From contig NC_008817.1 of the NCBI RefSeq assembly GCF_000015665.1, forward strand, positions 1,178,001-1,242,000: DNA of 64,000 bases, in the 5' to 3' direction. Below, piece by piece: positions 4,734 to 63,346 of this stretch; within the stretch, counting starts at the first letter, position 1; each line of letters begins with the position of its first letter. The stretch comes from Prochlorococcus marinus str. MIT 9515. Lineage in GTDB: Bacteria > Cyanobacteriota > Cyanobacteriia > PCC-6307 > Cyanobiaceae. The notes beneath the pieces were generated by a model. The model had not been told where the DNA came from and ran no database searches. It saw nothing but the letters and a program-made list of their open reading frames with translations. A program made the position numbers and the translations under genes.

Positions 4734-6559
4734 AATTTTTCGACTCGTTTTTTTCTCCAGTTAGCCTCAAAACCATCATTTAGCAAATCTATTGATTGAG
4801 CATTCAATTCACTTTTTTTGATCCTCCATAGATGATAAATTCCATGAGAACCTAATTTTTGATGTTTCATATTTGACCAATGCTCTTTTTTAGCTGAATA
4901 TTTATCTATTACAACCAAAAAGTATTCATGTTCATAGTTTGGTTTATCTTGAAAATTAGTCCTTCTTTCAAATTTAAATCTCTCGAACAAATTAATTACT
5001 CCCTCCGCAGCACTAGATTCATAAAAAACAATCTGTTTAGTGTAGAAATGCAATGAGGGTTTTCTAATTCCAATCATTGCAAGAGTTTCACCTTCCTCAC
5101 GAGAATTTAGAATTTGTTTAGAAATATTTCGTAAGGGTAATTGCCTAGAGGTGTCTCCTAATTTCCTAATTGGTGGCATTAAAAAGGCTTGCCCTATAAA
5201 GAATATTATTTGAAGATAAATAAGAGTCTTTGGAGATCTTAAGACAAACAAAACAATTCCAATAATTGTAAAGGCAACGAAAAACAATCTTGCCTTAAGT
5301 ATTATTCCAGTACTCAATAAATTTGAAGCAAGATTTGGCATCTCAGGATCATTTATTGCATCCAACCAAATATTTGATAGAAAGAAGGCTATTGATAACC
5401 CAAGCAGAATTAGAAGATTAATAATCCACAAAGATGAAAATACTTTTTTTTGATTTTGAATTTTCGTGTAACTATTACTTACCAAAATTGCCGCTGCTGG
5501 AATTGCAGGGAGCCAGTAGCTAGGAAGTTTTGTTGCAGAAATGCTGAAAAAAACAAATACTGAACCTAACCAACATAAACAATAAATAAATAAACTTTCT
5601 GAAGGTATGCAACCTTTTTTTAAACTAGTTATTAAGTCTTTATAAGCCTCTAATATTCCGTGAAATAAAAAAGGAGTAAAAGGTAATGATCCTACAACCA
5701 TTATGTATAAAAAAAACCAAATAGGTTCTGAATGATTATTAACTACTGATGTATATCTCTGGAAATTATGATATCCAAAAAAACTATCCCAAAACGGTTT
5801 ACCTTCCTTTATCAGCTCTAAAACATACCAAGGTAAACTTATCAAAACTGTAACTAAAACTCCTTTTTTAAGGTTTATTTTGTCAAGCAACTTCTTCCAA
5901 TTCTTTTGAGTGAACAAAAAAGATGAAATAGTCAAAGTGGCAAGAACAAAAGCTACTGGTCCTTTGGTTAAAATCGCGAGCCCCATAAAAACCCAAGGAG
6001 ATATACAATTATCTTTTTTATTACTAGCCATTCTTCTCCAAAACAAAAGAAGGCTTATCCCTAAAGTTCCACATAATAAAGCATCACTTACAGCAGTTCT
6101 GCTCCAAACGATTATTAATGGAGACAAGGCAAATCCTAAAGAGGCCACTATCGGAGTTGATGATTTTCTTACACCCTTTTGAGGCCAACAATAAATTGTA
6201 TCCCCAATTATTAGCATCAAAAATAATGAAGCCAATGCTGAAGGAAGTCTTGCTGCAATTGTTCCAAAGCTATCCCATAATTCGTTTTTGGGTAGTGAAT
6301 AGAACAAGCCCATTAGCCAATATATAAGGGGTGGCTTATCAAAACGTAAAATCCCATTTACTTTTGGGGTTAACCAATCACCTGATTCGCTCATTGCTTT
6401 CCCGGCCGCTGCAAAAAGAGGAGGGGTTTCATCCACTAATCCGGTAGAGCCTAAACCGAAAAGAAAAATTATTATTCCAAATACCAAAATTATTAAAAAA
6501 GTAAATAACCTTTTTTTAGAGTTAATAAATAATCTTTTTTCAGACTTTAAAAGTATCAT
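4730..6559 (-). CDS. ArnT/PMT-type lipid-linked sugar glycosyltransferase
   Basis: A 609-residue integral membrane glycosyltransferase of the GT-C fold (PMT_2/ArnT family), which moves a sugar from a polyprenyl-phosphate carrier to a lipid or protein acceptor on the outer face of the inner membrane. After the first helix comes the family's catalytic acidic loop, GLVDETPPLFAAAGKAMSE, followed by LTPKVNGILRFDKPPLIYWL, which matches the conserved D-E, F-x-K-P-P pattern. About a dozen hydrophobic helices follow and then a soluble C-terminal part. The ATG overlaps the stop of the upstream GT4 gene by one base, so the two are coupled and probably act on the same glycan. The sugar (aminoarabinose, mannose or other) is not determined. 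Confidence 0.85.
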   Translation of the reverse strand: MILLKSEKRLFINSKKRLFTFLIILVFGIIIFLFGLGSTGLVDETPPLFAAAGKAMSESGDWLTPKVNGILRFDKPPLIYWLMGLFYSLPKNELWDSFGTIAARLPSALASLFLMLIIGDTIYCWPQKGVRKSSTPIVASLGFALSPLIIVWSRTAVSDALLCGTLGISLLLFWRRMASNKKDNCISPWVFMGLAILTKGPVAFVLATLTISSFLFTQKNWKKLLDKINLKKGVLVTVLISLPWYVLELIKEGKPFWDSFFGYHNFQRYTSVVNNHSEPIWFFLYIMVVGSLPFTPFLFHGILEAYKDLITSLKKGCIPSESLFIYCLCWLGSVFVFFSISATKLPSYWLPAIPAAAILVSNSYTKIQNQKKVFSSLWIINLLILLGLSIAFFLSNIWLDAINDPEMPNLASNLLSTGIILKARLFFVAFTIIGIVLFVLRSPKTLIYLQIIFFIGQAFLMPPIRKLGDTSRQLPLRNISKQILNSREEGETLAMIGIRKPSLHFYTKQIVFYESSAAEGVINLFERFKFERRTNFQDKPNYEHEYFLVVIDKYSAKKEHWSNMKHQKLGSHGIYHLWRIKKSELNAQSIDLLNDGFEANWRKKRVEKF

Positions 6560-22396: not shown

Positions 22397-22470
<74 letters not shown>

Positions 22471-23439
22471 TGCAAAGATGCCGTAATGTAAAAAATATTT
22501 ATCTGAAGTTAATTTTTCAAAAACATTTATAAATTCTATTTATCTAAGCGTATTTTAAATAAATAGATTTATTACTCACAAAAGGAAAATAAAATTTCTC
22601 CAAATATAAATTATGTAAAATTTATGAGCATATATTTCAGGAATTATCTCTTTTATGAGATTAAAAAAAACCAATTATTTCTCTTCATAATATTGATTTT
22701 TTCATGATATATATTTCGTTTATTTCTTGGATATACTGTTTGATTATAAGTCTTAGAGAAATTTAAATAAAGTTCTTTATCCTTATGAACCATCAAATGA
22801 AATGGCTGTACATCTTAATGGGCTAATTAAATTGAAATAATTAATAGTATAAGTTTTGTTCAAATATAAATCTTGCAAATTTTGTTCTCAAGTGATTTTT
22901 AAATGCCTGAGAAATCATTTTAGAAAAGAAGCAAGATTAATGAATTAGAAAAAAGATTTTCTTTAATTCCAAGATGTTAATTTTACTCATCCCAAACAGG
23001 GAAAACGTAATATTACTCTTCAGCATCAACTCATCATTAAACGCTATTAGATATAGCTTCATCTCTTTAATTTAAAACTTTTTAAACTTATATTTGTATT
23101 CTTTTTTTGCCCTATAAAACAATTAATACTAAAAAAAGCATCAACTCAACCATACTAAATTAACAAATAACTTATTTTGCCTCTTAACTAAGATTTATCG
23201 TTTCACATTTATGTAGATATAAATAATTTAATGTAAGAATAAGTGTTTTTTGTTGAATAATACCAGCAGGATTAAATAAATTTTTAGTAGATAAAGAAGA
23301 TGGGAAAAAGATAGCTAGATAAATTAACTTTTTATTTAGATGAATACAAATCACTTTTATGAAGCTATATAATTAAACCTATATTAAATTCACAATGAAA
23401 TATGTATTTTGAAAAAGTATTAATAAATAAAATAAAATT
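22471..23439. other. 969-base region without a convincing gene
   Basis: Stop codons are dense in all frames. The best short frames are about 27 codons from ATG at 22624 (hydrophobic, MSIYFRNYLFYEIKKN...) and 34 codons from ATG at 22974 (MLILLIPNREN...); neither has supporting features. The stretch lies between the tRNA and the first island gene, where decayed integration remnants or small RNAs are plausible, and it must also hold the promoter for gmd. Confidence 0.5.
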
Positions 23440-24546
23440 ATGAATAAAAAAGCCTTAATTACTGGAGTTACCGGACAAGATGGGAGTTATCTAGTTGAAT
23501 TTCTTTTAAATAAAAAATACGAAGTACATGGAATAAAGAGGAGAAGTAGTAGCTTAAACACGCGAAGGGTAGATCATCTATATCAAGATCCACATGAAAA
23601 TAATCCAAGATTTTTTATGCATTATGGTGATCTAACTGACAGTACAAACTTAATAAGACTTATACAAGATATCTCCCCTGATGAAATTTATAATTTAGGT
23701 GCTCAAAGTCATGTAGCAGTTAGTTTTGAAACTCCCGAATATACTGCTAATTGCGATGCTTTAGGCACCTTAAGAATATTAGAGGCAGTTCGAGTATTAG
23801 GTCTCTCAAAAAAAACAAAAATATATCAAGCCAGCACTAGTGAATTATATGGTTTGGTTCAGGAAACACCTCAAAACGAAAAAACACCTTTCTATCCTAG
23901 AAGTCCATATGGTGTTGCAAAATTATATGCTTATTGGATTACGATTAATTATCGAGAAGCATATGGAATGTACGCATGTAACGGGATTCTTTTCAACCAT
24001 GAAAGCCCTAGGAGAGGAGAAACATTTATCACGAGAAAAATCACAAGAGGGCTTGCGAGAATAGATGCTGGCCTTGAAAAACTTCTTTTCTTGGGAAATC
24101 TTAATTCAAAAAGGGATTGGGGACACGCAAGAGACTATGTGGAAATGCAATGGCTAATGCTTCAACAAAAGGAACCAAAAGATTATGTCATATCAACTGG
24201 GAGAGCAGAAAGTATAAGAAAATTTGCTGAGATAAGTGCATCTTATCTTGGCTGGAGTGATAAAGGAAAACCTGGGATAATTTGGGAAGGAGAAGGTTTA
24301 AATGAAGTGGGAAGAAGAGCTGATACTATGGAAATAGTTATCAAAGTTGACCCCAGATACTTTAGACCAACTGAAGTTGAATTTCTTCTTGGTGAATCAA
24401 AAAAAGCATCTCTAGAATTAGGTTGGACTCCAAACACTTCATTAGAAGAATTAGTAAAAGAAATGATAGAATCTGATAAAGAAGAAGCTAGGAAAGACTC
24501 TCTATTGAAAAAATCAGGTTTTCAAATAAATAATTCCCAAGAATAA
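23440..24546 (+). CDS. gmd: GDP-mannose 4,6-dehydratase
   Basis: A 368-residue extended SDR enzyme that turns GDP-D-mannose into GDP-4-keto-6-deoxy-D-mannose, the branch point for fucose, colitose, rhamnose and perosamine. The cofactor loop is [10 protein letters not shown] at residues 9-18; the NADP-binding [15 protein letters not shown] follows. Active-site residues match the E. coli enzyme even in number: Thr133, Glu135, Tyr157 and Lys161 (STSELYG and SPYGVAK). It is the first gene of a plus-strand unit with fcl, 16 bases before it. Confidence 0.97.
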
Positions 24547-24562
24547 AGATGGTTCATATTAG

Positions 24563-25561
24563 ATGACACTAATAAATAAGGAAGAAAAAATATTTATAGC
24601 TGGGGGAAGTGGAATGGTTGGAAGTGCCATAATAAGAAAGTTGAATAATTTAGGATTTAAACATTTAATTTTCCCTAATAGTTCTGAACTTGATCTGAAA
24701 GATTCAAATTTAGTTTTTAATTGGTTTAAAAAAAATAAACCGGATATCGTAATTTTCGCGGCTGCTAAAGTTGGAGGAATATTTGCAAATAACACATATC
24801 CAGTTGACTTTTTATTAGATAACTTAAAGATTCAAAATAATGTTATTGAAAGTGCTTGGAAAAATAAAGTGAGGAGGTTACTTTTTCTTGGGAGTAGTTG
24901 TGTTTATCCAAAAAATTCAAGTCAACCCATAAATGAAGATGAATTACTAAAAAGTTCTCTTGAGAAAACGAACGAATGGTATGCATTAGCAAAGATTAGT
25001 GGAATTAAATTATGTCAGGCATTAAGAAAACAGTATGGATTTGATGCAATATCACTTATGCCAACGAATCTCTATGGTAAAGGTGACAATTATCATTCAT
25101 CTAATAGTCATGTTCTACCAGCTTTACTTGATAGATTCCATTCACACAAACTTGAGCAAAAAAACTATATTGAATGTTGGGGATCTGGAAATCCAAGGAG
25201 AGAATTTATGCATGTTGATGACTTGGCAGATGCTTCAATTTTCGCACTGGAAAATTGGGATCCCAATAAAAATGACGCACCTTTAGATCAATCAGGAGAG
25301 CCATTAAATTGGCTTAATGTTGGCACAGGAATTGATTTGAGTATAAAAGAGCTTGCCGAGATGATTGCTAGTATCACCTCATTCAAAGGGAAAATCATTT
25401 GGAACAAAGATAAACCCGATGGGACATTTAGGAAACTTTTAAACGTTTCAAAATTAGAAAAATTAGGTTGGAGATCAAAAATATCTTTGGAGGAAGGACT
25501 ACTAATTACGTATAAAGACTATAAAAAAGAATTAAAAGAGAACAAACTTAGAATTAAATAA
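24563..25561 (+). CDS. fcl: GDP-L-fucose synthase
   Basis: A 332-residue epimerase-reductase that makes GDP-L-fucose from the Gmd product with NADPH. Features: GGSGMVGSAI at the cofactor loop, AAAKVGGIFANN, GSSCVYP with catalytic Cys113, Tyr140-x3-Lys144 in WYALAK, PTNLYGKGDNY, and NSHVLPALLDRFH with His183. All catalytic residues of E. coli Fcl are there. Together with gmd it forms a canonical fucose module; the start at 24563 gives the usual N-terminus. A diverged second copy lies at 59333-60295. Confidence 0.96.
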   Translation: MTLINKEEKIFIAGGSGMVGSAIIRKLNNLGFKHLIFPNSSELDLKDSNLVFNWFKKNKPDIVIFAAAKVGGIFANNTYPVDFLLDNLKIQNNVIESAWKNKVRRLLFLGSSCVYPKNSSQPINEDELLKSSLEKTNEWYALAKISGIKLCQALRKQYGFDAISLMPTNLYGKGDNYHSSNSHVLPALLDRFHSHKLEQKNYIECWGSGNPRREFMHVDDLADASIFALENWDPNKNDAPLDQSGEPLNWLNVGTGIDLSIKELAEMIASITSFKGKIIWNKDKPDGTFRKLLNVSKLEKLGWRSKISLEEGLLITYKDYKKELKENKLRIK

Positions 25562-25837
25562 AAACAATTCCAATTTAACAGAGTTGGGAAATCATTATGA
25601 GCATTATTTTTAAAAATTTTTTTTGGAATAACTTTTATAATAATTTTCCAAATTTAAGTATTTTTTGATAGAAATATTTTAAAAGATTGATTCCTATAAA
25701 TCCTTTTTAAACAGCTATAAATACTGACTGACAAAAAAATTTGGTAACTATGCTGTAAACATTTAAAAATTAGATTTTTATTAATTGAGTTAATAAAAAT
25801 CTTTGTAGTAATATTTTAATAATGTAGTTTAATATTA

Positions 25838-27280
25838 ATGGAACAAAAAATAATTCCTATAATTTTATGTGGAGGGAAAGGAACTAGATTATGGCCGCTT
25901 TCTAGACAGAGTTATCCAAAACAATTTTTAGCTTTGCACGGAGATAAGAATAAGTCCCTTTTACAACAGACTCAGGAGAGAATATCTTTTTTAGAAGGTA
26001 TTACTGAGCCAATAATAATTTGTAATGAGGAGCATAGATTCTTAGTAGCAGAACAAATGAGAGATATAAATGTAAAACCAAAAGCAATAATACTTGAAAA
26101 TGAAGGTAAAAATACAGCCCCAGCAATTGCTCTTGGAGCTATAAAAGCTTTAGAAGAAGAGCAAGAAGATCCATTATTGTTAATATTATCTGCGGATCAT
26201 ATAATTAGAGATCTAAATGTTTTCTCAAAAGTTTTACAAAAAGGATGTAAGTCAGCATTAGAAAATAATTTAGTTACATTTGGAATAATTCCTAATCGCC
26301 CAGAAACAGGTTATGGATATATAGAAAGTGAATTCGTTCTTGATAAAAATAATATTAAAGGTAGTCGTATTAAAAGATTTATCGAGAAGCCAAACAAAGA
26401 ATTAGCTCAAAAACTTGTCAAGTCAAATAAATATACTTGGAATAGTGGAATGTTCGTTTTCAAAAATAGCTTAATTATTAAAGAACTCAATAAACATGCA
26501 CCCTTAGTTTTACGATATTGCAAAAAAGCAATAGGTAGTAGTGTTAGAGATCTTGATTTTATAAGAATTGATGGAGATTCTTTCTCTAAATCTCCTAATA
26601 TCCCAATAGATATTGCCGTTATGGAAAAAACTAATTTAGGTTTAGTTCTTCCCTTAGATGCAGGATGGAGTGATATTGGTAATTGGGAATCATTATGGGA
26701 TAACGAAAAGAAAGATTCTTTTGGCAATGTAATTAAAGGTAAAGTTTTTAATGAGGGATCAACTGACTGCTATATCAAAAGTGAGAATAGTCTTTTAGTT
26801 ACTCTGGGTTTAAAAGATTTAATACTTGTTGAGACTTCTGATGCAATACTTGCTGCTAACAAAAATGAATTAAATAAAATAAAAACAGTATTAAATAAAC
26901 TTGAAAAAAAAGGATACACGGAGGTCAATACACATAGAAAGATATATCGACCATGGGGTTCATATACTTCTTTAATAGAGAATGAAAAGTGGCTTGTTAA
27001 AAGTATTGAAGTCAATCCCGGATCAAAACTCTCCCTACAAATGCATCATCATAGGACTGAACATTGGATAGTAGTGAAAGGAACCGCACAAGTTGAATTA
27101 GACAATAGAAGTTTCGTTTTAAGTGAAAATCAAAGTACTTTCATCCCTTTAGGTTCAAAGCATAGATTAAGTAATCCTGGAAAAATTGATTTAACTCTAA
27201 TTGAAATTCAGAGTGGAGATTATATTGGAGAGGATGATATTGTAAGGTTCAAAGACGATTACGGTAGAATAAATGATTAA
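25838..27280 (+). CDS. manC: mannose-1-phosphate guanylyltransferase / mannose-6-phosphate isomerase
   Basis: A 480-residue bifunctional enzyme that provides GDP-mannose for gmd. The guanylyltransferase domain covers about 1-350 with the signature GGKGTRLWPLSRQSYPKQFL at the start, LSADHII, FIEKPNKE and WSDIGNWESLW. The C-terminal cupin (about 365-475) is the type II isomerase, with PWGSYTSLIENEKWLVK and LSLQMHHHRTEHWIVVKGTA carrying metal-ligand histidines. A 276-base spacer separates it from fcl, so it may have its own promoter; the next gene begins 12 bases after its stop. Confidence 0.97.
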   Translation: MEQKIIPIILCGGKGTRLWPLSRQSYPKQFLALHGDKNKSLLQQTQERISFLEGITEPIIICNEEHRFLVAEQMRDINVKPKAIILENEGKNTAPAIALGAIKALEEEQEDPLLLILSADHIIRDLNVFSKVLQKGCKSALENNLVTFGIIPNRPETGYGYIESEFVLDKNNIKGSRIKRFIEKPNKELAQKLVKSNKYTWNSGMFVFKNSLIIKELNKHAPLVLRYCKKAIGSSVRDLDFIRIDGDSFSKSPNIPIDIAVMEKTNLGLVLPLDAGWSDIGNWESLWDNEKKDSFGNVIKGKVFNEGSTDCYIKSENSLLVTLGLKDLILVETSDAILAANKNELNKIKTVLNKLEKKGYTEVNTHRKIYRPWGSYTSLIENEKWLVKSIEVNPGSKLSLQMHHHRTEHWIVVKGTAQVELDNRSFVLSENQSTFIPLGSKHRLSNPGKIDLTLIEIQSGDYIGEDDIVRFKDDYGRIND

Positions 27281-27292
27281 AATAAGATTTTT

Positions 27293-28330
27293 ATGGAAGA
27301 AAAAATATTAGTCACTGGTTGTGCAGGTTTTATAGGATTTCATGTATGTAAACAATTAATCAAAAAGGGGTTATTTGTTATTGGATTAGACAATCTTAAT
27401 AATTACTACGATATTAGTTTAAAGAGAGCCCGTTTAAAAGAAATAGAAAATTTTTCAAAAAATAATATTAAGGGAGAATTCTTATTTATAAAAGCAGATT
27501 TGAAGGATGAAAAAATTTTAAAAAACATTTCTAAAGTACACTTACCAAAAAAAGTTATTCACCTTGCCGCCCAAGCAGGTGTAAGACACTCAATAGAAAA
27601 TCCAAGAGCATATATTAATTCAAATTTGGTTGGGTTTGGTAATGTTCTTGAGTTCTGCAAGGATAACCAAGTTGATCACTTGATTTATGCAAGTAGCAGT
27701 TCTATTTATGGTGGTAATAAAAAAATTCCATTTTCTGAGAAGGATTTTGTTGACTATCCAGTAAGTCTCTATGCAGCAACAAAAAAATCTAATGAGCTAA
27801 TGGCCCATTCCTATAGTCATCTTTTTAAACTACCCTCTACTGGAATAAGACTTTTTACAGTTTATGGTCCTTGGGGTAGACCAGATATGGCTCCAATGAT
27901 CTTTACAAAATCAATTCTCTCCTCAAAGCCAATAAAAATTTTTAATAACGGCGAAATGTTTAGAGATTTTACCTACATTGATGATGTTAGTGAAGCAATA
28001 CTGAAGCTCCTTCACCTACCACCAAAATATTTAAATGATGACAAAAATTTAAACTCTTCAGAATTACCTGAATTAACTCCACATAGGATTATAAATATTG
28101 GAAGTAGTAATCCAATAAACCTATTAGAATTTATAGATATTCTCGAGAGCGAGATTAATATAAAAGCAATAAGAGTATTTGAAAAAATGCAATTAGGAGA
28201 CGTTAAAAAAACATATGCTGATACTTCTTATATAGAAGATTTAATTAACTACAAACCAAATACCTCATTAAAAAATGGAATAAGGGAATTTGTGAAATGG
28301 TATAAAAATTTTTATAAATTATTCTCTTAA
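27293..28330 (+). CDS. UDP-glucuronate 4-epimerase-like SDR
   Basis: A 345-residue nucleotide-sugar epimerase. GCAGFIGFHVCKQL gives the NAD loop, followed by the subfamily's LDNLNNYYDISLKRARL; further motifs are HLAAQAGVRHSIENP, SSSSIYGG, and YAATKKSNE with Tyr-x3-Lys, then RLFTVYGPWGRPDMA. This pattern is that of CapI/UDP-glucuronate 4-epimerases, which make UDP-galacturonate for capsules. Its 3' end overlaps the convergent WbpM-like gene by 12 bases. Substrate is inferred from the family. Confidence 0.88.
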   Translation: MEEKILVTGCAGFIGFHVCKQLIKKGLFVIGLDNLNNYYDISLKRARLKEIENFSKNNIKGEFLFIKADLKDEKILKNISKVHLPKKVIHLAAQAGVRHSIENPRAYINSNLVGFGNVLEFCKDNQVDHLIYASSSSIYGGNKKIPFSEKDFVDYPVSLYAATKKSNELMAHSYSHLFKLPSTGIRLFTVYGPWGRPDMAPMIFTKSILSSKPIKIFNNGEMFRDFTYIDDVSEAILKLLHLPPKYLNDDKNLNSSELPELTPHRIINIGSSNPINLLEFIDILESEINIKAIRVFEKMQLGDVKKTYADTSYIEDLINYKPNTSLKNGIREFVKWYKNFYKLFS

Positions 28331-51435: not shown

Positions 51436-52452
51436 CTAAGATTTTTTGTTATTAAAACTATCAACTAGACATATACATTTTTGACAAATATAATTTGCCC
51501 ATACCTGATCATAATGGGTTGTTTTTATATATTTATAATAAAATTCAATTATTTTTTTAATCCTAAATAAATATTCTTTTTTAGTCATAGAATTTAAATA
51601 TAAGTAAAGTTCTTTATAACTTGAAAAATCACTTTTATTTATAAATGTATAAGGATCTATTTCTTGCGTTATATTTGGACAACCTAAATATACTGGAATA
51701 CATCCAGCAAACATACTATCAAATATCTTTTCAGTTATGTAACCATTATGCGAACAATTTTCAAAGCATAAAGAAAATTTATAATTAATAAAAGTTTTTA
51801 ACTTCTTTTCCACAGTTCCTTTATAAAACTGAGGTGTTTTATATAAAAACTTTTTTGCTAAAGGTATTTTATTTAAAGGCCTATATATGCCTCTAAATTG
51901 TCTTAAATCCCATCCATATCCATATAAGTCAATTCCTAAATTAGTTTTTTTAAAAAATTCCATTGCTTCCTCCCTTTCCTTATAAAGAGAATATTTATTA
52001 TTTGAATACTTTTTACTGATTATTGAACAAATATTACCTGATTTTCTCTTATAAATAAGGTTTAAATCTTTCGCATATAACTCTGAACTATTTCCATAAC
52101 CTATCCAGAATATTTTTTTTTGATCACACAATTCTCGGTTCCAAGTCATCACCAAATCGAATTGATCTAAATAGTATTTAGAGTTGTTCAATTTATTTAT
52201 AATTGGAGATTCTCTTGCTATAAGAATATTAATTGGAGATCTTTTCTGAGAAAGAGCTTTTTTGTTGACGTCAAAGTAAATAGAAAAAATTGATTCTTCT
52301 TGTGAATTGATATCATAAGTTTCTAAAAAAATATTATTTTCTTCTAATTTTTTCTTTAAAATAATGTATTTTTTGGATGTATCATCTCTTTTATTAGAGT
52401 CAAAAATCCTATTATTTAGTGCATTATCATAAGTAACTAAAGAAGCCTTCAT
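51436..52452 (-). CDS. GT10 alpha-1,3/4-fucosyltransferase
   Basis: A 338-residue inverting glycosyltransferase of family GT10, which uses GDP-L-fucose. The donor-binding core is unmistakable: FSLCFEN at 226-232, GYITEKIFD at 237-245, GCIPVYLG at 250-257, then a D-P-Y-T-F segment. The N-terminal domain includes RESPIINKL and WNRELCD. It matches the local gmd-fcl pathway, so at least one fucose (or a related GDP-sugar such as colitose) is attached. It is on the minus strand after wzx with a 41-base gap. Confidence 0.94.
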   Translation of the reverse strand: MKASLVTYDNALNNRIFDSNKRDDTSKKYIILKKKLEENNIFLETYDINSQEESIFSIYFDVNKKALSQKRSPINILIARESPIINKLNNSKYYLDQFDLVMTWNRELCDQKKIFWIGYGNSSELYAKDLNLIYKRKSGNICSIISKKYSNNKYSLYKEREEAMEFFKKTNLGIDLYGYGWDLRQFRGIYRPLNKIPLAKKFLYKTPQFYKGTVEKKLKTFINYKFSLCFENCSHNGYITEKIFDSMFAGCIPVYLGCPNITQEIDPYTFINKSDFSSYKELYLYLNSMTKKEYLFRIKKIIEFYYKYIKTTHYDQVWANYICQKCICLVDSFNNKKS

Positions 52453-54483: not shown

Positions 54484-55492
54484 ATGATAAAAAAGATTCT
54501 TATTGTAGCTTTGAAATATAGTTATGGTAATAAAAATTTTGGACCATCTATTAACAAAGGTGCGTTAGAGGATAGTTTAAAAAAAATAGGAATGGTAACA
54601 AAAACCATATGGATTGATCAACACAAAAAAGATATTTTAAATAAATTGATAATCCATGAAGCTGAAACATTTAAACCTGATCTGGTTTTTTTTAAATTAT
54701 TTAAAGACGAGGTTTATGCCAATACATTATTAAAATTAAAAAAAAGATTTAAAACAGTAAATTGGTTTGGAGATGATCCATGGAGATTCGAATCTTTTGC
54801 TAAGTATTATGCAAATAAATTTAGTTATGTCATAACTACAGATAAATATAGTACTAATCTTTACAAGAAAATTGGACAAAATAAAGTAATAATTAGTCAA
54901 CATGCCTCATTCCCTTCAGACATACCATATAAAAAGGTGACTTATCAATATGATGTTTCATTTGTAGGGACAAAAAGTGCTTATAGAGATTGGTTTTGTA
55001 AAAAAATTAAGAAATAAAGGAATTAATTGTGAGTGTTTTGGAAAAGGCTGGGAAAATGGTTTGGTTAGCTATAAAAAAATGCAAAATATTTTTAATACTT
55101 CAAAAGTTAATTTGAATATTAATAACAGTGTAAATTATGATTTAAGAGTTAATTTTAATAATCCCAAAAATTTAATTGAAGTATTTAAATCATTAATAAT
55201 TAAAAATAGAAAAATTCATAGTCAAATAAAGGCTAGGAATTTTGAGATACCTTTACATGGAGGTTTTCAGCTTACAGATTATGTTCCTGGTATTGAAGAT
55301 TATTTTAAAATCGGAGAAGAAATTCTATGTTATAAGGATTTTGAAGATGCATTATCCTTAATTAAATATTTATTAATAAATAAAAAAGAAAGAGAAATAA
55401 TTAAAAATAATTCTGTTATGAGATCAAGAAAAGAGCATACTTATACCTGTAGAATGAAAAAAATTATTGAGAATATTGCTTCCTATAAATAG
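54484..55492 (+). pseudogene. CgeB-like glycosyltransferase split by a one-base frameshift
   Basis: Two overlapping frames together encode one protein of about 335 residues. The first (54484-55017) begins MIKKILIVALKYSYGNKNFG and includes VNWFGDDPWRFESFAKYYAN and YQYDVSFVGTKSAYRDWF; the second continues VKKLRNKGINCECFGKGWEN, then the C-terminal RNFEIPLHGGFQLTDYVPG typical of CgeB/glycosyltransferase-like proteins. The shift lies in TTTTGTAAAAAAA (54994-55006): removing one A of A7 or one T of T4 restores DWF(C/V)KKLRNKG. It may be a sequencing slip, a real inactivation, or a phase-variable switch. Everything else in the frame is intact. Confidence 0.8.
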
Positions 55493-56736: not shown

Positions 56737-58164
56737 ATGAAAAAATTAAAAAGAAATCATTTCAAAAATCTAATTGAACCATTTCTGTATGACCAAATGG
56801 ATAAAGATTATTATGAATTGTTAGAGATAGAAGCTAAAGATTTAATTACATATAATAGGTTAGATATCATATATAAGCTTGTATATCTAAGAGGTATCAA
56901 TAATAATAATTATTATTTTACTAAATATTATCTAGATCACATTAAATCTTTTAATTTTGGGAAATTTATTGAGTTTGATAATCCAAATAAAAATAGTAGC
57001 TCTAAATTCATAAACGTATTTAAAAATATAGATAAAAATATTCATGAGAACGGTTTTGATGAAAACTTATCTATAATTCCGCTCTCAATGATGGTTCGAT
57101 TTAATGGATCTCATAGAGTCGCAAGCAGTATTTTTAGGAATAGAAAAGTAAAGTGCATTAAACTATCCTGTAAACCTTTTTCCTATAATTATGAGTTTTT
57201 TACGAATCATTTAGTAAATCAAGCCTGGTTAGAAGATATTGTTTTAAATTACATAACTGAAAGTAAAAATTTCTCAGTTGCTTTGATTTGGCCAAGAGCT
57301 GATTTAGAAAATAGAATAATAAAAAAATATTTTAATAAAATAATTTATTTTAAAGAAATTAAATTAAGTTTCAGCGCATTAGATCAAGTAGTAAAATCTG
57401 TCTACCTAAATGAAAAATGGTTAGGTAGTAAAGAAAAAAACTTTAATGGGTCTATTTTAAAAACAATTCAATGTTATAAAAGGAATAAATCACTTAAATT
57501 AATAATATTTGAGAAAAAAAATAATGAAGATATATTCAGAATTAAATCTGAAATTAGAAATCTTTGTAATATTGATAATCATTCAATTCACACTTTAGAT
57601 ACTAAAGAAGAAGCAATTATTATTTCTAGATTATTGTTAAATATAAATTCCATAAAACTTTTAAATAATTACGTTTTCAATAAAGAAAATTACCAATATC
57701 TCAATAATTTAGAAAAATCAATTAATAAGATAAATTTATCTAGTAATGATTTCATCATTTCAGATAAATCATCACTCTTTATATATGGGATTAATAAAAA
57801 TCATACAAAAACCTTATTAGAAATATATGGTCATAAATTAAAAGTAAATGATAAAGCTAATAATGTTATTTTTAAAAAATTAAAAAGTAATTTGAATGAT
57901 GAAATAATTTATAATCCTGAAAATTATTTCTGGTTTAATAATATAAAATTTATATCAATTAATGGGATTTTCACTCTTTATAAGAACGGAATTTTAGACC
58001 TTGATAAAAGAACCCTTTTAAAACTAAGAAGAAAAAATATCAATTCTATTTTTTATTTCTCTCAAAAATCAATAATTTTAACATCTTTCTTAATAGGTAT
58101 TTTAAAATTTAAAATTGTAAAAATAAGAAATTTTTTAAAACAATTATTGTCTATTAAAATCTAA
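56737..58164 (+). CDS. uncharacterised protein with NGSHR and HSIHxxDT motifs
   Basis: A 475-residue protein not assigned to a known family. Residues 112-134 (IIPLSMMVRFNGSHRVASSI) resemble the strand-loop-helix of ParB/sulfiredoxin-like domains, where a D/N-G-x-H-R loop binds phosphate or nucleotide. A second domain has VALIWPRADLENRIIKKYF, ALDQVVKSVYLNEKWLG, and NIDNHSIHTLDTKEEA at 278-292, whose His-Ser-x-His and Asp-Thr look functional. The C-terminal 150 residues may form another small domain. Its last four bases overlap the ColD-type gene on the opposite strand. Partner of the preceding unknown. Confidence 0.7.
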   Translation: MKKLKRNHFKNLIEPFLYDQMDKDYYELLEIEAKDLITYNRLDIIYKLVYLRGINNNNYYFTKYYLDHIKSFNFGKFIEFDNPNKNSSSKFINVFKNIDKNIHENGFDENLSIIPLSMMVRFNGSHRVASSIFRNRKVKCIKLSCKPFSYNYEFFTNHLVNQAWLEDIVLNYITESKNFSVALIWPRADLENRIIKKYFNKIIYFKEIKLSFSALDQVVKSVYLNEKWLGSKEKNFNGSILKTIQCYKRNKSLKLIIFEKKNNEDIFRIKSEIRNLCNIDNHSIHTLDTKEEAIIISRLLLNINSIKLLNNYVFNKENYQYLNNLEKSINKINLSSNDFIISDKSSLFIYGINKNHTKTLLEIYGHKLKVNDKANNVIFKKLKSNLNDEIIYNPENYFWFNNIKFISINGIFTLYKNGILDLDKRTLLKLRRKNINSIFYFSQKSIILTSFLIGILKFKIVKIRNFLKQLLSIKI

Positions 58165-59336
58165 TATTTCTTTAGACAATTTTTAATAATTTCCAAATCT
58201 GAAGTTGATAATCCAGGATAATTACCACAATAGAAACTATTTGAAGTTAAAAAATCTGCACCAGGACAAGAGGTTGAATATTTAGAGTATTTTTTATAGA
58301 AAGGCTGAAATTGAATATTTCCTGCAATCATTGGTCTTATTTCTACTCCAGCTCCAGAAAATTGGTTAAAGTAAAAATTTTTTATTTCAGCTGATTTGCA
58401 AACAACGGGAAAGGCGAATGGAGAAAGAAAATCTTGATGATCGTAATTAATGCTTTGTAAATCTGTATTATCAACAACAACAGAATTAAGGACTAAGTGA
58501 TTTGAATTTCTTTTTTTGATATTTTCATTTAAATATTTTAATTGATTTAAACCCAAAAAACCTGTTATTTCTGTAGGTCTTAAATTATATCCTAAATCAT
58601 AAAAACTATACTTAGAGTCAAATTCACTAAGTATATTGTGAGTTTTTCTAATTTTGAACTTTTGATCAGAATTAAGATTACGATCCCAACCATTAGATCT
58701 AACCATCCTTAACATTTCTTCTAAATCATTATCATCTGTCGTAACCATGCCACCCTCAATTGTGGACATATGATGAGCCACAAAAAAGGAGAAGGTTGAC
58801 GCTAAGCCATAATTTCCAGATTTTTTACCAGATACAATACTTCCAAGTGCTTCACAATTATCTTCAATTAAAATAATATTTCTTGCATCACAAATTTCTT
58901 TAATCTTATCAAGATCTCCTGTAAAGCCTAAAACATTGGTTAAAAAAATTGCATCTAAATTTAAATTATCAATAACATCTATTATATTTTTAGACATGAC
59001 ATTAAGTGTTTTGGGATCGCAATCTAAAGCTATAGGTTCCATTCCTAATTGAATTATTGGCATTACATTAGTAGACCAAGTAAGAGCCGAGAAACCAACT
59101 TTAGAGTTATTTTTTAAGCGCCCTAAATTTTTCAAAGACTGAAGCAGAGCCAAATTAGCACTCCCGCCACTATTAAATAGAATAGAATCTTTTCTACCTT
59201 GATATATAGAAAACTCTTTCTCAAATTCAGAGCATTTTATTCCCATACTTAGCTTATTGGAAGATAATATGAATTCAGATAAAGCTAACTTTGTTTTATA
59301 TTCTTCTATAAATGTATCTTTCATAAGAGGAATCAT
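58161..59336 (-). CDS. colD: ColD-type GDP-4-keto-6-deoxy-D-mannose 3-dehydratase
   Basis: A 391-residue member of the DegT/DnrJ/EryC1/StrS PLP fold. The segment where aminotransferases carry the PLP lysine reads [20 protein letters not shown], with His188 in the lysine position. E. coli ColD (388 residues) uses His188 at this place and removes the 3-hydroxyl, so this enzyme should be a dehydratase and not an aminotransferase. [22 protein letters not shown] and [19 protein letters not shown] are family motifs. It overlaps the Fcl/ColC-like gene by four bases (ATGA), and the substrate is made by gmd in the same island. RfbH-like activity on a CDP-sugar is the main alternative. Confidence 0.85.
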
Positions 59337-60295
59337 TGCTTCTTATTATTAATTTCTTCATTTAATTTTAAAGCTTTATATGAATTTATGGTGGAAACTA
59401 ATCCATCATCCAGATTGATTTTAGGTTTGAAACCAAGTTTTGAAATTTTTGAAACGTCCAGTAATTTGTGCGGTGTTCCATCAGGTTTAGATTCGTCCCA
59501 AATAATTTCACCTTCAAACCCAGTAAGACCTGCGATCTTTGATGCAAGTTCACATATCTTGATTTCTTCACCAGAACCAACATTAATATGATCATTTGAT
59601 TTATATTTTTCTAAAAGCAAAATTATTGCATCTACTGCATCCTCTACATTTAAAAACTCTCTGAAAACTTCACCGCTTCCCCATAATTCTACTTTTCCTA
59701 TTGAGTTATCAACCGCATCGACAAATTTCCGAACGAGAGAAGACAAGACATGTGAATTTATTAAATCAAAATTATCATTATTCCCATATAGATTGCAAAA
59801 CATAGGACAAATACATTGTATGTTATATTTTTCTGCATAAAGCTTAGCTAATTTTAAACCTACAATTTTTGCTAACGCATATGGTTCATTTGTAGGTTCT
59901 AATAATCCAGTCAAAAGGTAATTCTCCTTTATTGGTTGTTCAGATTCTCTAGGGTAAATGCATGAACTTCCAATAAAAACTAAAGTTTTAGTATTATTTT
60001 TAGCAGCAGCATCAATTATATTAGTTTGAATCATAAGGTTGTCATATAGAAATTCGCATTTAAAATTTTGGTTAGCTTGAATCCCTCCAACTTTTGCTGC
60101 AGAAAGAATAATTTTATCAGGTTTATGGATACCTATAAAATTATTAACATCAATTTGATTCCTTAAATCGAGATCTTTTTTATCTACCGTAATAACTTCA
60201 TATATATTTTGATCTTTAAATTTCCTAAGTAATGATGAACCAAGCATTCCATTATGACCGGCAATAAAAATTTTAGTCTTTTGTTTTATAAGCAT
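59333..60295 (-). CDS. Fcl/ColC-like GDP-sugar epimerase-reductase
   Basis: A 320-residue [36 protein letters not shown] with Cys112, Tyr139-x3-Lys143 in PYALAK, and [14 protein letters not shown] with His182. All residues needed for 3,5-epimerisation and 4-reduction are there, equal to E. coli Fcl with an offset of three. It is a second copy beside fcl at 24563 and diverges from it. The tight coupling to the ColD-type dehydratase makes GDP-L-colitose synthase (ColC) the best guess; plain GDP-L-fucose synthase remains possible. Probably transcribed from a promoter in the 451-base upstream spacer. Confidence 0.85.
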
Positions 60296-60746: not shown

Positions 60747-61751
60747 TTGGAAATATCAAAATCTTTTATCGATATAACAGAAAAGATAGGTAAAGATATA
60801 AATCTTGTCCAAGGTCCAGGAGGTAACATATCATTTAAAAGTAATGGCTTTATGTACATAAAAGCATCTGGAGAAAAAATGTCTGATGCTAAAAATAAAA
60901 ATATTTTTGTTAAAACAGATCATAAGAAAATACTATCATCTCTTAAAAATAATGACCCAGATCCAATTAAAAATTGTTGGGATAAGAATTCTCTAATGCG
61001 TCCATCAATTGAGACAACTATGCATGCATTAATGCCTCATAAATATGTACTTCATGTTCACTGCGTAAATACTCTTAGCTGGGTAACACAGAAAAATTAC
61101 CAAAAAAAAATAAAAAACTTTTTACATGGAATTAATTGGAAATCAGTTCCCTATATAAAACCTGGTATTAATTTATCTAATGAAATAAATAAAATCATAA
61201 GAGAGTCAATAGTAGATGTAATTTTCTTAGGCAATCATGGGATAGTTGCAGGTGCAGAATCTGCTGAAAGTGTTTTTGAAATAGTTAAAAAAATTTCAGA
61301 AAAATTATATATATCTGAATTAGAAAAAATGGAAATTGATTTAAAAAAGTTTAATAAATATCTTTTATGCAGAGAATATAAGTTACCAAAAAATGAATAT
61401 GTTCATCAAATTGCCTTTTCAAAGATTCATTCTTTAATAGCAACAAAAGGAGATTTATTCCCAGATCAAACTGTTTTTCTAGAAAATGGATTAATCATAA
61501 TAAATTCCCTTGAGGAACTTACTATGTTATCTAAATCAAGAACTAATAAATTACCTGTTGTATTGATTCCAAATGTAGGGATACTAGTTCCAAGAATATT
61601 CAAAGATGTTAATGAAGATACTTTAGTTGGTTTATCAATGATAATTTCAAGATTACCAAAAGATGTCTTGCTAAATTATTTAACAAAGGAAGAAAGAAAT
61701 GAATTAATTAATTGGGATTTAGAGATTCATAGAAAAACACTCAATAATTAA
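60747..61751 (+). CDS. class II aldolase/adducin-family protein
   Basis: A 334-residue protein starting at TTG, giving MEISKSFIDITEKIGKDINL. The class II aldolase fold is clear: GPGGNISFKS (phosphate loop), KASGEKMSD, IETTMHALM with Glu89, HVHCVNTL with zinc ligands His103 and His105, and LGNHGIVAGAESAES with His164. Such enzymes cleave or form sugar-phosphate C-C bonds; RhaD-like relatives are larger. The C-terminal 130 residues are an additional domain seen in the longer members. It is followed after five bases by a double nucleotidyltransferase gene, so the two probably make an activated sugar. Substrate unknown. Confidence 0.85.
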   Translation: MEISKSFIDITEKIGKDINLVQGPGGNISFKSNGFMYIKASGEKMSDAKNKNIFVKTDHKKILSSLKNNDPDPIKNCWDKNSLMRPSIETTMHALMPHKYVLHVHCVNTLSWVTQKNYQKKIKNFLHGINWKSVPYIKPGINLSNEINKIIRESIVDVIFLGNHGIVAGAESAESVFEIVKKISEKLYISELEKMEIDLKKFNKYLLCREYKLPKNEYVHQIAFSKIHSLIATKGDLFPDQTVFLENGLIIINSLEELTMLSKSRTNKLPVVLIPNVGILVPRIFKDVNEDTLVGLSMIISRLPKDVLLNYLTKEERNELINWDLEIHRKTLNN

Positions 61752-61756
61752 AAATC

Positions 61757-63346
61757 ATGAAAATACAGCTAGTTATTCCAATGTCCGGTATTGGTAAAAG
61801 ATTTAAAGATGCAGGTTATACTACCCCAAAACCACTTATAAAAATAAGAGGCAAAGAGATAATAAATCATGTAGTTAATATGTTTGGGGAAATAGAAAGA
61901 GTTATTTTCATTTGTAATGAAGAGCATCTTCATGATAAGAAATTAAACCTAAGCAAAATATTAAGTAATCTACATCCAAAAACAACTGTTGTTTCTATTA
62001 AGCCGCATAAGAAAGGTCCAATTCATGCTGTTTTAGAAGCCGAATCAATTTTGGAATCCTTGAAACCTACAATAGTTAATTATTGTGATTTCAATTCTTT
62101 TTTTAATTTTCCAAATTTTATAAATCATTTAAAAAAAGATCAGCCAGATGGATGTGTTTTTACCTACACAGGTTTTCATCCACATATGTTAAAGAACACA
62201 AATTATGCTTATGTGAAAAAATACAAGAATTCCGTTGTTGATATTCAAGAGAAAAAGCCTTTTACTGAAAACCCAATGAATGAAGAAGTCTCAAGCGGGA
62301 CTTATTACTTTAAATCAGCTAAATTGATGCTTAAATATTTTAAAAAAGCGATTTTATTAGATCTTAAAGTAAATGGAGAGTTTTATGTTTCTATGGCATA
62401 TAAACCCATGATTAAAGATGGTCTAAAAATAAAAACTTTTCTAATTAATTATTTTATGCAATGGGGAACTCCTTCAGATTTGGAAGATTTCAAATGGTAT
62501 TCAAATGTTTTCAAAAATATAATTAAAAAAAAGAATAATCATAAAAATATATATGAAGGATGTTTATTAATGCCAATGGCTGGAGAAGGTTCTAGATTTA
62601 GAGAAAAAGGATATAAAATCCCTAAACCATTTATTAAAATTTCAGGTTCTGAAATGTATATAAAAGCAATTAAAGATTTACCAAGAATGGAAAATATAAA
62701 AATAGTTACAACAGAAAAATTAATTAAAAATAAAAAGCCTTTTTTTAATATTAAAGATAAAAAATTAAATATAAGTATAAAATCTTTAAAAACAAAACCT
62801 GAAGGTCAAGCTTGTACTTCTCTAAAAGCTTTTGAAGATAATAGTATCAATTTAGAAAAGCCTTTAATAATAAGTGCTTGTGATATGGGAATTATTTTTG
62901 ATGAAAAAAAATATCAAAAACTTATCGCCTTACAAGATATAGATATTTTAGTATGGGGATGTAAAGGTTACCCAGGTGCACAACAAAAACCTAATATGTA
63001 TAGCTGGATATATAAAAATAAAAATGAAAATTATATTTCTAATATTTCAGTAAAGAAAAACCTTTTCAATCCAAGAGAAGATTATGTTTTGATTGGTACA
63101 TTTACATTTAAGAAAGCGAAGTATTTTGTGCAGTCGGCAGAACTTAGTATTGCTTGTGGAGAAAAAGTAAATGGTGAATATTATGTAGATAATGTAATTA
63201 ATAAATCTATAGAAATAGGATTAAAAGTAGCAATATTTGAAGTTGATTACTTCATATGTTGGGGGACCCCTAATGAATTAGAAACTTACAATTATTGGGA
63301 ATCATGTTTTAAAAAATGGACAGATCATCCTTATATGAAAAGATAA
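61757..63346 (+). CDS. protein with two fused sugar-nucleotidyltransferase domains
   Basis: A 529-residue protein made of two tandem NTP_transferase domains, about 1-255 and 266-529. Each starts with a pyrophosphorylase signature: PMSGIGKRFKDAGYTTPKPL and PMAGEGSRFREKGYKIPKPF. Each has a metal-binding Asp after the fourth strand (NYCDFN and SACDMG) and each ends in a WGTP motif followed by an acidic helix (WGTPSDLEDF, WGTPNELETY). Both halves keep the catalytic Arg and Lys, so both may be active. It follows the class II aldolase by five bases. Two enzymes acting on one pathway, or a gene duplication-fusion, are both possible. Confidence 0.88.
   Translation: MKIQLVIPMSGIGKRFKDAGYTTPKPLIKIRGKEIINHVVNMFGEIERVIFICNEEHLHDKKLNLSKILSNLHPKTTVVSIKPHKKGPIHAVLEAESILESLKPTIVNYCDFNSFFNFPNFINHLKKDQPDGCVFTYTGFHPHMLKNTNYAYVKKYKNSVVDIQEKKPFTENPMNEEVSSGTYYFKSAKLMLKYFKKAILLDLKVNGEFYVSMAYKPMIKDGLKIKTFLINYFMQWGTPSDLEDFKWYSNVFKNIIKKKNNHKNIYEGCLLMPMAGEGSRFREKGYKIPKPFIKISGSEMYIKAIKDLPRMENIKIVTTEKLIKNKKPFFNIKDKKLNISIKSLKTKPEGQACTSLKAFEDNSINLEKPLIISACDMGIIFDEKKYQKLIALQDIDILVWGCKGYPGAQQKPNMYSWIYKNKNENYISNISVKKNLFNPREDYVLIGTFTFKKAKYFVQSAELSIACGEKVNGEYYVDNVINKSIEIGLKVAIFEVDYFICWGTPNELETYNYWESCFKKWTDHPYMKR

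Follow-up and report, generated by a model that had tools for sequence, protein, structure and literature searches.

Colitose, which is 3-deoxy-L-fucose, is a rare surface sugar that is best known from gut bacteria. In Escherichia coli O55 the gene of the GDP-L-colitose synthase ColC is followed by that of the dehydrase ColD (PDB entries 2gms, 3b8x, 2r0t and 3gr9), and the cluster also holds a gene of family GT11, annotated as an alpha-1,2-fucosyltransferase. Two other enzymes are close to these: Fcl, the GDP-L-fucose synthase, and E1/RfbH, the CDP-4-keto-6-deoxyglucose 3-dehydrase, which has a DegT fold and an active-site histidine. According to a review, E1 and SpnQ bear a [2Fe-2S] cluster on four cysteines and ColD is without it (PMC8987622). 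The GDP-heptose C3-dehydratase pathway of Campylobacter jejuni HS:5 also treats a GDP sugar with a ColD-type dehydrase, epimerises it at C5 and reduces it at C4, but its substrate is a heptose and its epimerase and reductase are separate proteins (PMC10440746). Here we compare these systems with a pair of overlapping genes from Prochlorococcus marinus str. MIT 9515, found in a stretch of 64,000 nucleotides (NC_008817.1, positions 1,178,001 to 1,242,000; hereafter the window). The pair encodes a DegT-fold dehydrase and an Fcl-like short-chain dehydrogenase/reductase (SDR), and we consider it probable that it makes GDP-L-colitose or a very close GDP-3,6-dideoxyhexose.

An earlier reading of the window, made from its letters without database searches (the sequence-only reading), had proposed a GDP-L-colitose pathway for these genes. 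The gene order, the linkage to gmd and the structural model favour a GDP-3,6-dideoxyhexose route, although neither protein falls within the clade of ColD or ColC, and colitose as the final sugar is what we infer. Judged by sequence, the pair most likely works like ColC and ColD, yet does so with proteins from outside both clades in the strict sense.

The dehydrase and its place beside ColD

In our alignment His188 of the dehydrase occupies the column of the lysine that holds pyridoxal 5'-phosphate (PLP), as does the histidine of E. coli ColD. This column is His in 28/28 members of the window enzyme's subfamily, in 6/6 ColD and in 5/5 RfbH rows, and Lys in 20/20 aminotransferase rows; a PLP lysine nearby was looked for in the alignment and none was found. 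The sequence-only reading was thus right about the open reading frame (ORF), its 391 residues and its histidine, but mistaken in holding that this length is that of E. coli ColD, as the O55 protein has 388 residues. Eight residues are kept throughout the 28 rows, in ColD numbering Trp88, Asn134, Glu162, Trp217, Arg219, Arg250, Pro332 and Asn371, and the position of ColD Ser187 is Ala or Gly in 27 of them. Where a column is invariant in the six ColD rows and its residue never occurs in the five RfbH rows, the window enzyme has the ColD residue at 17 of 43 positions; for RfbH-specific columns the figure is 4 of 27. Within the limits of six ColD and five RfbH rows, these discriminating columns separate the enzyme from RfbH, whereas the full set of ColD-invariant columns does not.

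Against sequences in the PDB, phmmer places four ColD entries first (up to 190.6 bits), followed by E1 (145) and perosamine synthase (102). The best NCBIfam match, on the other hand, is RfbH (209.6 bits), and this, together with the shared histidine, would suit an E1/RfbH-type dehydrase of a CDP- or dTDP-sugar with an iron-sulphur cluster. We regard such an enzyme as highly improbable here. The score is far under the curated RfbH cut-off of 423 bits, and the four cysteines that five RfbH rows have in common (C193, C251, C253 and C261 in Salmonella numbering) are represented by Cys, Arg, Leu and a gap, so that three of the four are absent, as in ColD, and only the counterpart of C193 is kept. 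The gene is moreover linked to gmd and fcl, and the enzyme lies outside the RfbH clade, a grouping that the tree test described below rejects.

An AlphaFold model of the dehydrase (predicted local distance difference test score 91.7, from a 24-row alignment) is closest to ColD (VIA-align Z 45.8-47.0), then to E1 (44.0-44.2) and to perosamine synthase (about 42); Foldseek also ranks ColD first. A common fold is by itself no proof of dehydrase function, and the likeness to perosamine synthase could point to an aminotransferase that makes an amino sugar and dispenses with the usual lysine. This can hardly be credited when the lysine is absent from all 28 relatives, ColD and E1 both outscore perosamine synthase in the structural match, and a grouping with aminotransferases is rejected by the same tree test.

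The trees place the dehydrase more precisely. In a tree of 81 rows, from which matches under 57 bits, fragments (L009_1, two pieces of L023, and L024) and the duplicate L001 were omitted, the window enzyme belongs to a 28-row clade (support 100/99) inside a 36-row clade (100/99). The latter is sister to a seven-row clade (100/97) that holds E. coli ColD and excludes the window dehydrase. The joint node has support 100/92, or 99/91 in a reduced tree of 61 rows that omits 20 long-branch or redundant ones, and in the 81-row tree both the RfbH types and the lysine-bearing aminotransferases lie outside it. On the 61-row tree the approximately unbiased (AU) test rejects a grouping with RfbH (p 0.0027) and with the lysine-bearing aminotransferases (p 0.006), for groups that were named only after the tree had been seen; an earlier test omitted the nearest outside rows and was too harsh, and the values quoted are from the fairer one. 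The phylogenetic check suggested by the sequence-only reading therefore sets the enzyme apart from RfbH and the aminotransferases and beside ColD, though not within the ColD clade. Lying in the sister clade, the dehydrase is no ColD orthologue in the strict sense, and that candidate was rejected; of the sampled families with an assayed member, ColD is the one that these trees place closest to it.

The reductase and its pairing with the dehydrase

The SDR gene comes first on the minus strand and overlaps the dehydrase gene by 4 bp, which is why we read the two as one small operon; ColC and ColD of E. coli O55 have the same order and the same 4-bp overlap. As the sequence-only reading had noted, this Fcl-like protein is complete in its catalytic residues. 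It keeps Ser110, Cys112, Tyr139, Lys143 and His182, the counterparts of Ser107, Cys109, Tyr136, Lys140 and His179 in E. coli Fcl, which we take to be the catalytic residues of that enzyme, and ColC has the same set. Against the Fcl model NF047922 (cut-off 500 bits) the window SDR scores 401, and the ordinary fcl of the same genomic island also remains below the cut-off (Table 1).

In a tree of 71 SDR rows, which omits L024_1678, ORFs of at most 250 residues (and hence L047) and identical rows, E. coli O55 ColC belongs to a 14-row clade and the window SDR lies outside it, in a 17-row clade (100/99). A second tree of 56 rows, made of 38 of the 71 and 18 new ones, again leaves it outside the ColC clade, and a plain ColC identity was therefore rejected. 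The clade of the window SDR instead joins, with moderate support (89/85 in the 71-row and 89/97 in the 56-row tree), the Fcl clade of its own family. This Fcl clade has 25 rows in the 71-row tree, among them the island's other fcl, and 24 of the 25 are without a dehydrase neighbour, most rows called unpaired being judged on stretches of about 4 kb. A test for convergence between ColC and the paired SDR clade found just two columns in which they agree against ordinary Fcl, at E. coli Fcl positions 135 and 280. Cys167 of the window SDR is the residue of 14/14 ColC, 6/17 paired and 1/30 Fcl rows, and was given no weight.

All 17 rows of the window SDR's clade have a dehydrase within 1.1 kb. Since it was mostly the dehydrase that led to these loci, this count is partly a matter of construction, and searches with the SDR alone were therefore run; they bear the pairing out. 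With the window SDR as query, three SDRs stand out among 266 Prochlorococcus genomes (707, 398 and 393 bits, the next at 322), and the genomes they come from are precisely the three with the dehydrase. With the SDR of locus L052, four stand out among 150 Flavobacterium genomes (707, 599, 542 and 470 bits, the next at 372), again exactly the four genomes with a dehydrase, and each directly precedes it. An SDR from one of the Flavobacterium dehydrase genomes falls inside the paired clade of the 56-row tree (15 rows, 100/98), whereas 17 weaker Flavobacterium SDRs all fall outside it. These 17 were sampled from 63 genomes that have such an SDR without the dehydrase; each has gmd at a distance of about 1 kb or less, and the stretches around them contain no ColD-type dehydrase. 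Four of these 17 stretches hold, further off, a weak DegT match (115-132 bits to RfbH).

When 84,980 species genomes were scanned, 34 loci emerged, and 25 (L034-L058) encode members of the dehydrase subfamily, 48-67% identical to the window enzyme. Their hosts are Prochlorococcus, Leptospiraceae, Elusimicrobia, a deltaproteobacterium, Flavobacterium, Cytophagales, Cloacimonadota, Nitrospinota, Lentisphaerae, several candidate phyla and an archaeon. Of these loci, 22/25 have an Fcl-like ORF no more than 1.1 kb off and on the same strand, 24/25 have one somewhere in the locus, and 16/25 have a gmd homologue, several loci ending early at contig ends. Among nine loci with more distant DegT proteins that served as controls (L059-L067), several of them also shortened by contig ends, the figures are 0/9 for the Fcl-like neighbour and 1/9 for gmd. 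The control locus L059, from a metagenome-assembled genome of Coxiella sp., encodes at 5499 a DegT protein in which His takes the place of the lysine and is followed by Ile, and has a gmd homologue 1.9 kb off; it is perhaps another GDP-linked deoxysugar route.

On a Pacearchaeota contig (L053, 7089-10268, plus strand) a single ORF of 1060 residues joins an SDR (25% identical to Fcl), a dehydrase (53%) and Gmd (60%). A GT11 gene directly follows the dehydrase in 9/25 loci, as seen with Pfam in L036, L038, L046 and L052 and from coordinates in L040, L043, L044, L050 and L051; these cases are not independent, because six of the nine are from flavobacteria or a close relative, and of ten nearby ORFs scanned with Pfam six are not GT11. 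In two loci from Elusimicrobia, with dehydrases 61% identical to that of the window, the neighbouring SDR is a true ColC. That one dehydrase clade stands beside SDRs of at least two clades, ColC included, fits best if all of these SDRs receive the same 3-deoxy substrate. The SDR tree suggests that dehydrase-linked SDRs arose more than once.

The surrounding island and related loci

The host genome is a single contig of 1,704,176 bp. The window divides into a core part (1-22400, G+C content 0.319) and an island of low G+C content (0.257 for 22500-64000) that starts near a tRNA-Arg at 22397; the pair itself has 0.293. The island contains many glycosyltransferases, two FkbM-type methyltransferases and sugar-nucleotide enzymes. 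The sequence-only reading held that gmd and manC supply the substrate of the pair. Both are indeed present in the island, but on the opposite strand, at a distance of 31-35 kb, with an fcl of their own between them. With gmd, fcl and manC in the same island the precursor would be available, and so would a GDP-L-fucose route.

Table 1. Position of the dehydrase/SDR pair and of related sugar-nucleotide and transfer genes in the window
Feature	Position	Strand	Product or proposed role	Basis
DegT-fold dehydrase	58161-59336	-	391 aa; PLP/PMP-dependent nucleotide-sugar 3-dehydratase, ColD sister clade	PDB phmmer matches, trees, model
His188 codon	58773-58775	-	in place of the PLP lysine	alignment
Fcl-like SDR	59333-60295	-	320 aa; proposed C5-epimerase/C4-reductase, GDP-colitose synthase by function	NF047922, trees, catalytic residues
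gmd	23440-24546	+	GDP-mannose 4,6-dehydratase; would supply GDP-4-keto-6-deoxymannose	TIGR01472, 570.5 bits (cut-off 415)
Second, ordinary fcl	24563-25561	+	GDP-L-fucose synthase type, no adjoining dehydrase	NF047922, 438.7 bits (cut-off 500)
manC	25838-27280	+	mannose-1-phosphate guanylyltransferase/mannose-6-phosphate isomerase	TIGR01479, 646.9 bits (cut-off 372.95)
GT10-family glycosyltransferase	51436-52452	-	fucosyltransferase type; candidate user of GDP-L-colitose or GDP-L-fucose	PF00852, 59.8 bits (cut-off 23.9)

The GT10 gene of Table 1 is the sole GT10 match in the genome. No GT11 gene was found near the pair in the window, and the only one of the genome lies elsewhere. A few further features of the island may be of use to annotators. 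At its edge (22397-28330) the tRNA-Arg is followed by the gmd-fcl-manC run, whose G+C content of 0.312 is near that of the core (0.319) and unlike that of the island (0.257). Adjoining the pair on the plus strand (60747-63346) are genes for a class II aldolase/adducin-like protein and then for a 529-residue protein with two nucleotidyltransferase-like halves. A glycosyltransferase gene at 54484-55492 (plus strand) appears to be broken into two frames that overlap (54484-55017 and 54977-55492); the homologous gene at L037:12188-13282 is a single ORF of 365 residues that tblastn matches in two frames, and the split is either a frameshift of this strain or a sequencing error.

Among the 266 Prochlorococcus genomes the subfamily proper is found in three: that of the window and two others, G552 and G313, with dehydrases 100, 67 and 65% identical to the window enzyme. 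The dehydrases of G552 and G313 are identical to those of loci L034 and L058, so each was counted once. In both genomes the pair lies near genes that flank the island of the window, but at another position, which suggests that the pair is a moving cassette. Dehydrase matches of any kind, at an E-value of 1e-40 or better, occur in 19 of the 266 genomes and are a mixture by best score. Two of these dehydrases, from G259 and G318, are 56-60% identical to E. coli ColD, and G259 (L079, from 5214 onward) has a classical ColC/ColD pair, with a ColD 56% identical to that of E. coli, an adjoining SDR of the ColC clade and an ordinary fcl nearby. ColD-clade members are also found in other genera of the family (L011, L012 and L015).

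Related genes are carried by phages. Cyanophage ACG-2014f (NC_026927; L070, 6047-9164) has a run of three genes, for Gmd (TIGR01472, 555 bits), for an Fcl-like SDR and for a dehydrase of the His type; the dehydrase has no E1 cysteine set and is 33% identical to that of the window. Glycosyltransferases and a methyltransferase follow this run. The ACG-2014f dehydrase matches 81 phage records, 45 of them at 95% identity or more and four at 60-80% (three of these are S-CAM7); among the matches listed, the records at 95% or more are ACG-2014f, and an epimerase name overlaps the dehydrase in the ACG-2014f rows. The presence of gmd and fcl in a cyanophage, S-SCSM1, is already on record (PMC9602691). 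A 642-kb uncultured phage (LR756502.1; L071, 7071-9167) has an SDR-dehydrase pair with a dehydrase 61% identical to that of the window. Elsewhere in this record are four GT11 matches and, at L071:15559, a second dehydrase, which is RfbH-like.

A proposed route and what it would mean

In the route that we propose, for which we infer the substrate, the product, the transferase and the location of the sugar, ManC and Gmd would provide GDP-4-keto-6-deoxy-D-mannose. The 391-residue enzyme would take an amino group from glutamate to form pyridoxamine 5'-phosphate (PMP), which would bind the C4 ketone of the sugar as a ketimine. His188, acting as base and acid, would expel the C3 hydroxyl, and hydrolysis of the resulting enamine would release GDP-4-keto-3,6-dideoxymannose, a ColD-like chemistry that would need no iron-sulphur partner. 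The SDR, an Fcl presumably recruited for this step, would then invert C5 by means of Cys112 and His182 and reduce C4 with NADPH by means of Tyr139 and Lys143. Finally, a fucosyltransferase-type enzyme, perhaps the GT10 protein of the island, would add the sugar to a surface polysaccharide. Because colitose is 3-deoxy-L-fucose, an Fcl acting on the product of the dehydrase would give colitose, and a GDP-fucose synthase that works after a 3-dehydratase can keep to its existing stereochemistry. In C. jejuni a C3/C5-epimerase gave from a 3-deoxy substrate the product of the dedicated C5-epimerase (PMC10440746).

The same source describes C. jejuni enzymes, 62-67% identical to ColD, that use GDP-6-deoxy-4-keto-heptose (PMC10440746), so that membership of the clade does not fix the substrate. 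A GDP-heptose substrate in Prochlorococcus, leading to a 3,6-dideoxy-heptose, nevertheless deserves very little credence: the island holds gmd and manC, no HddA was found in the genome, and the only two GHMP-kinase matches there look like IspE and ThrB by sequence and by their neighbours.

Several observations weigh against the route proposed here, and some of them lend weight to another one. The dehydrase is 30% identical to ColD and 29% to RfbH, which is not above the 31% between ColD and RfbH themselves (the sister placement to ColD could not be read from pairwise identity alone), and of 143 columns invariant in ColD it shares 74, a count that Salmonella RfbH equals. The SDR is closer to E. 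coli Fcl (44% identity) than to ColC (37%). It departs from its clade at both convergence columns, with Pro138 (Gly in 15/17 rows) and Thr274 (Met in 16/17); both are the residues of E. coli Fcl, are atypical for the clade and may reflect a change of specificity in this strain. An SDR of the window clade is found in just 15/25 subfamily loci, the others having ColC (two), an SDR elsewhere in the tree (six: L041, L045, L046, L054, L055 and L056) or one that was left unplaced (two: L047, a fragment, and L053, the fusion). In the window gmd lies 34 kb from the pair, and we know of no assayed member of either the dehydrase clade or the SDR clade.

Both the nearness of the SDR to Fcl and its two Fcl residues, as well as the low identity of the fused SDR in L053 to Fcl, could mean that the dehydrase acts as proposed on GDP-4-keto-6-deoxymannose while the SDR yields another stereoisomer, e.g. 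a D-sugar like GDP-tyvelose or a C4 epimer, or is a plain GDP-L-fucose synthase unrelated to the dehydrase. We think this unlikely. The SDR clade is found only beside the dehydrase, which holds too for the searches made with the SDR alone, an ordinary fcl already adjoins gmd in the island, the epimerase and reductase residues are complete, and fucosyltransferase-family genes directly follow the dehydrase in the nine loci listed above. We continue to favour GDP-L-colitose, or a very close relative, as the product.

We found no report of colitose in Prochlorococcus in the open-access literature, nor, by title and the beginning of the abstract, any of colitose in cyanobacteria. The sequence-only reading overstated the novelty, given that another genome of the genus has the classical ColC/ColD pair. 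ColC/ColD genes have been reported outside enterics, e.g. in a verrucomicrobial endosymbiont (PMC8204192), a 3,6-dideoxyhexose has been reported from the lipopolysaccharide of Anabaena cylindrica (PMC4515613), and a genome survey that found L-colitose absent from one archaeal group implies that the pathway was found in others (PMC7725333). With a cyanobacterial 3,6-dideoxyhexose and the archaeal survey already known, the present pair is an interesting variant and not an upset.

A wider proposal, which we put forward tentatively and with some doubt, is that the pair represents a second, independently assembled GDP-colitose route, made of a dehydrase from the sister clade of ColD and an SDR that evolved from GDP-fucose synthase and not from ColC. 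In the form of a small cassette it would have reached Prochlorococcus, Bacteroidota, Spirochaetota, Elusimicrobia, candidate phyla, an archaeon and a megaphage, with a related gmd-fcl-dehydrase module in cyanophages, and 3-deoxy-L-fucose would be a traded surface sugar in the contest between marine picocyanobacteria and their phages. Such genes go under the names aminotransferase and GDP-L-fucose synthase in public records, and the sugar may therefore be undercounted. Should GDP-colitose be the product of the pair, this would be a clean example of how an enzyme is recruited, and Prochlorococcus strains with and without the cassette would be set apart by a rare sugar on polysaccharides encoded in their variable island, a likely place of contact with phages.

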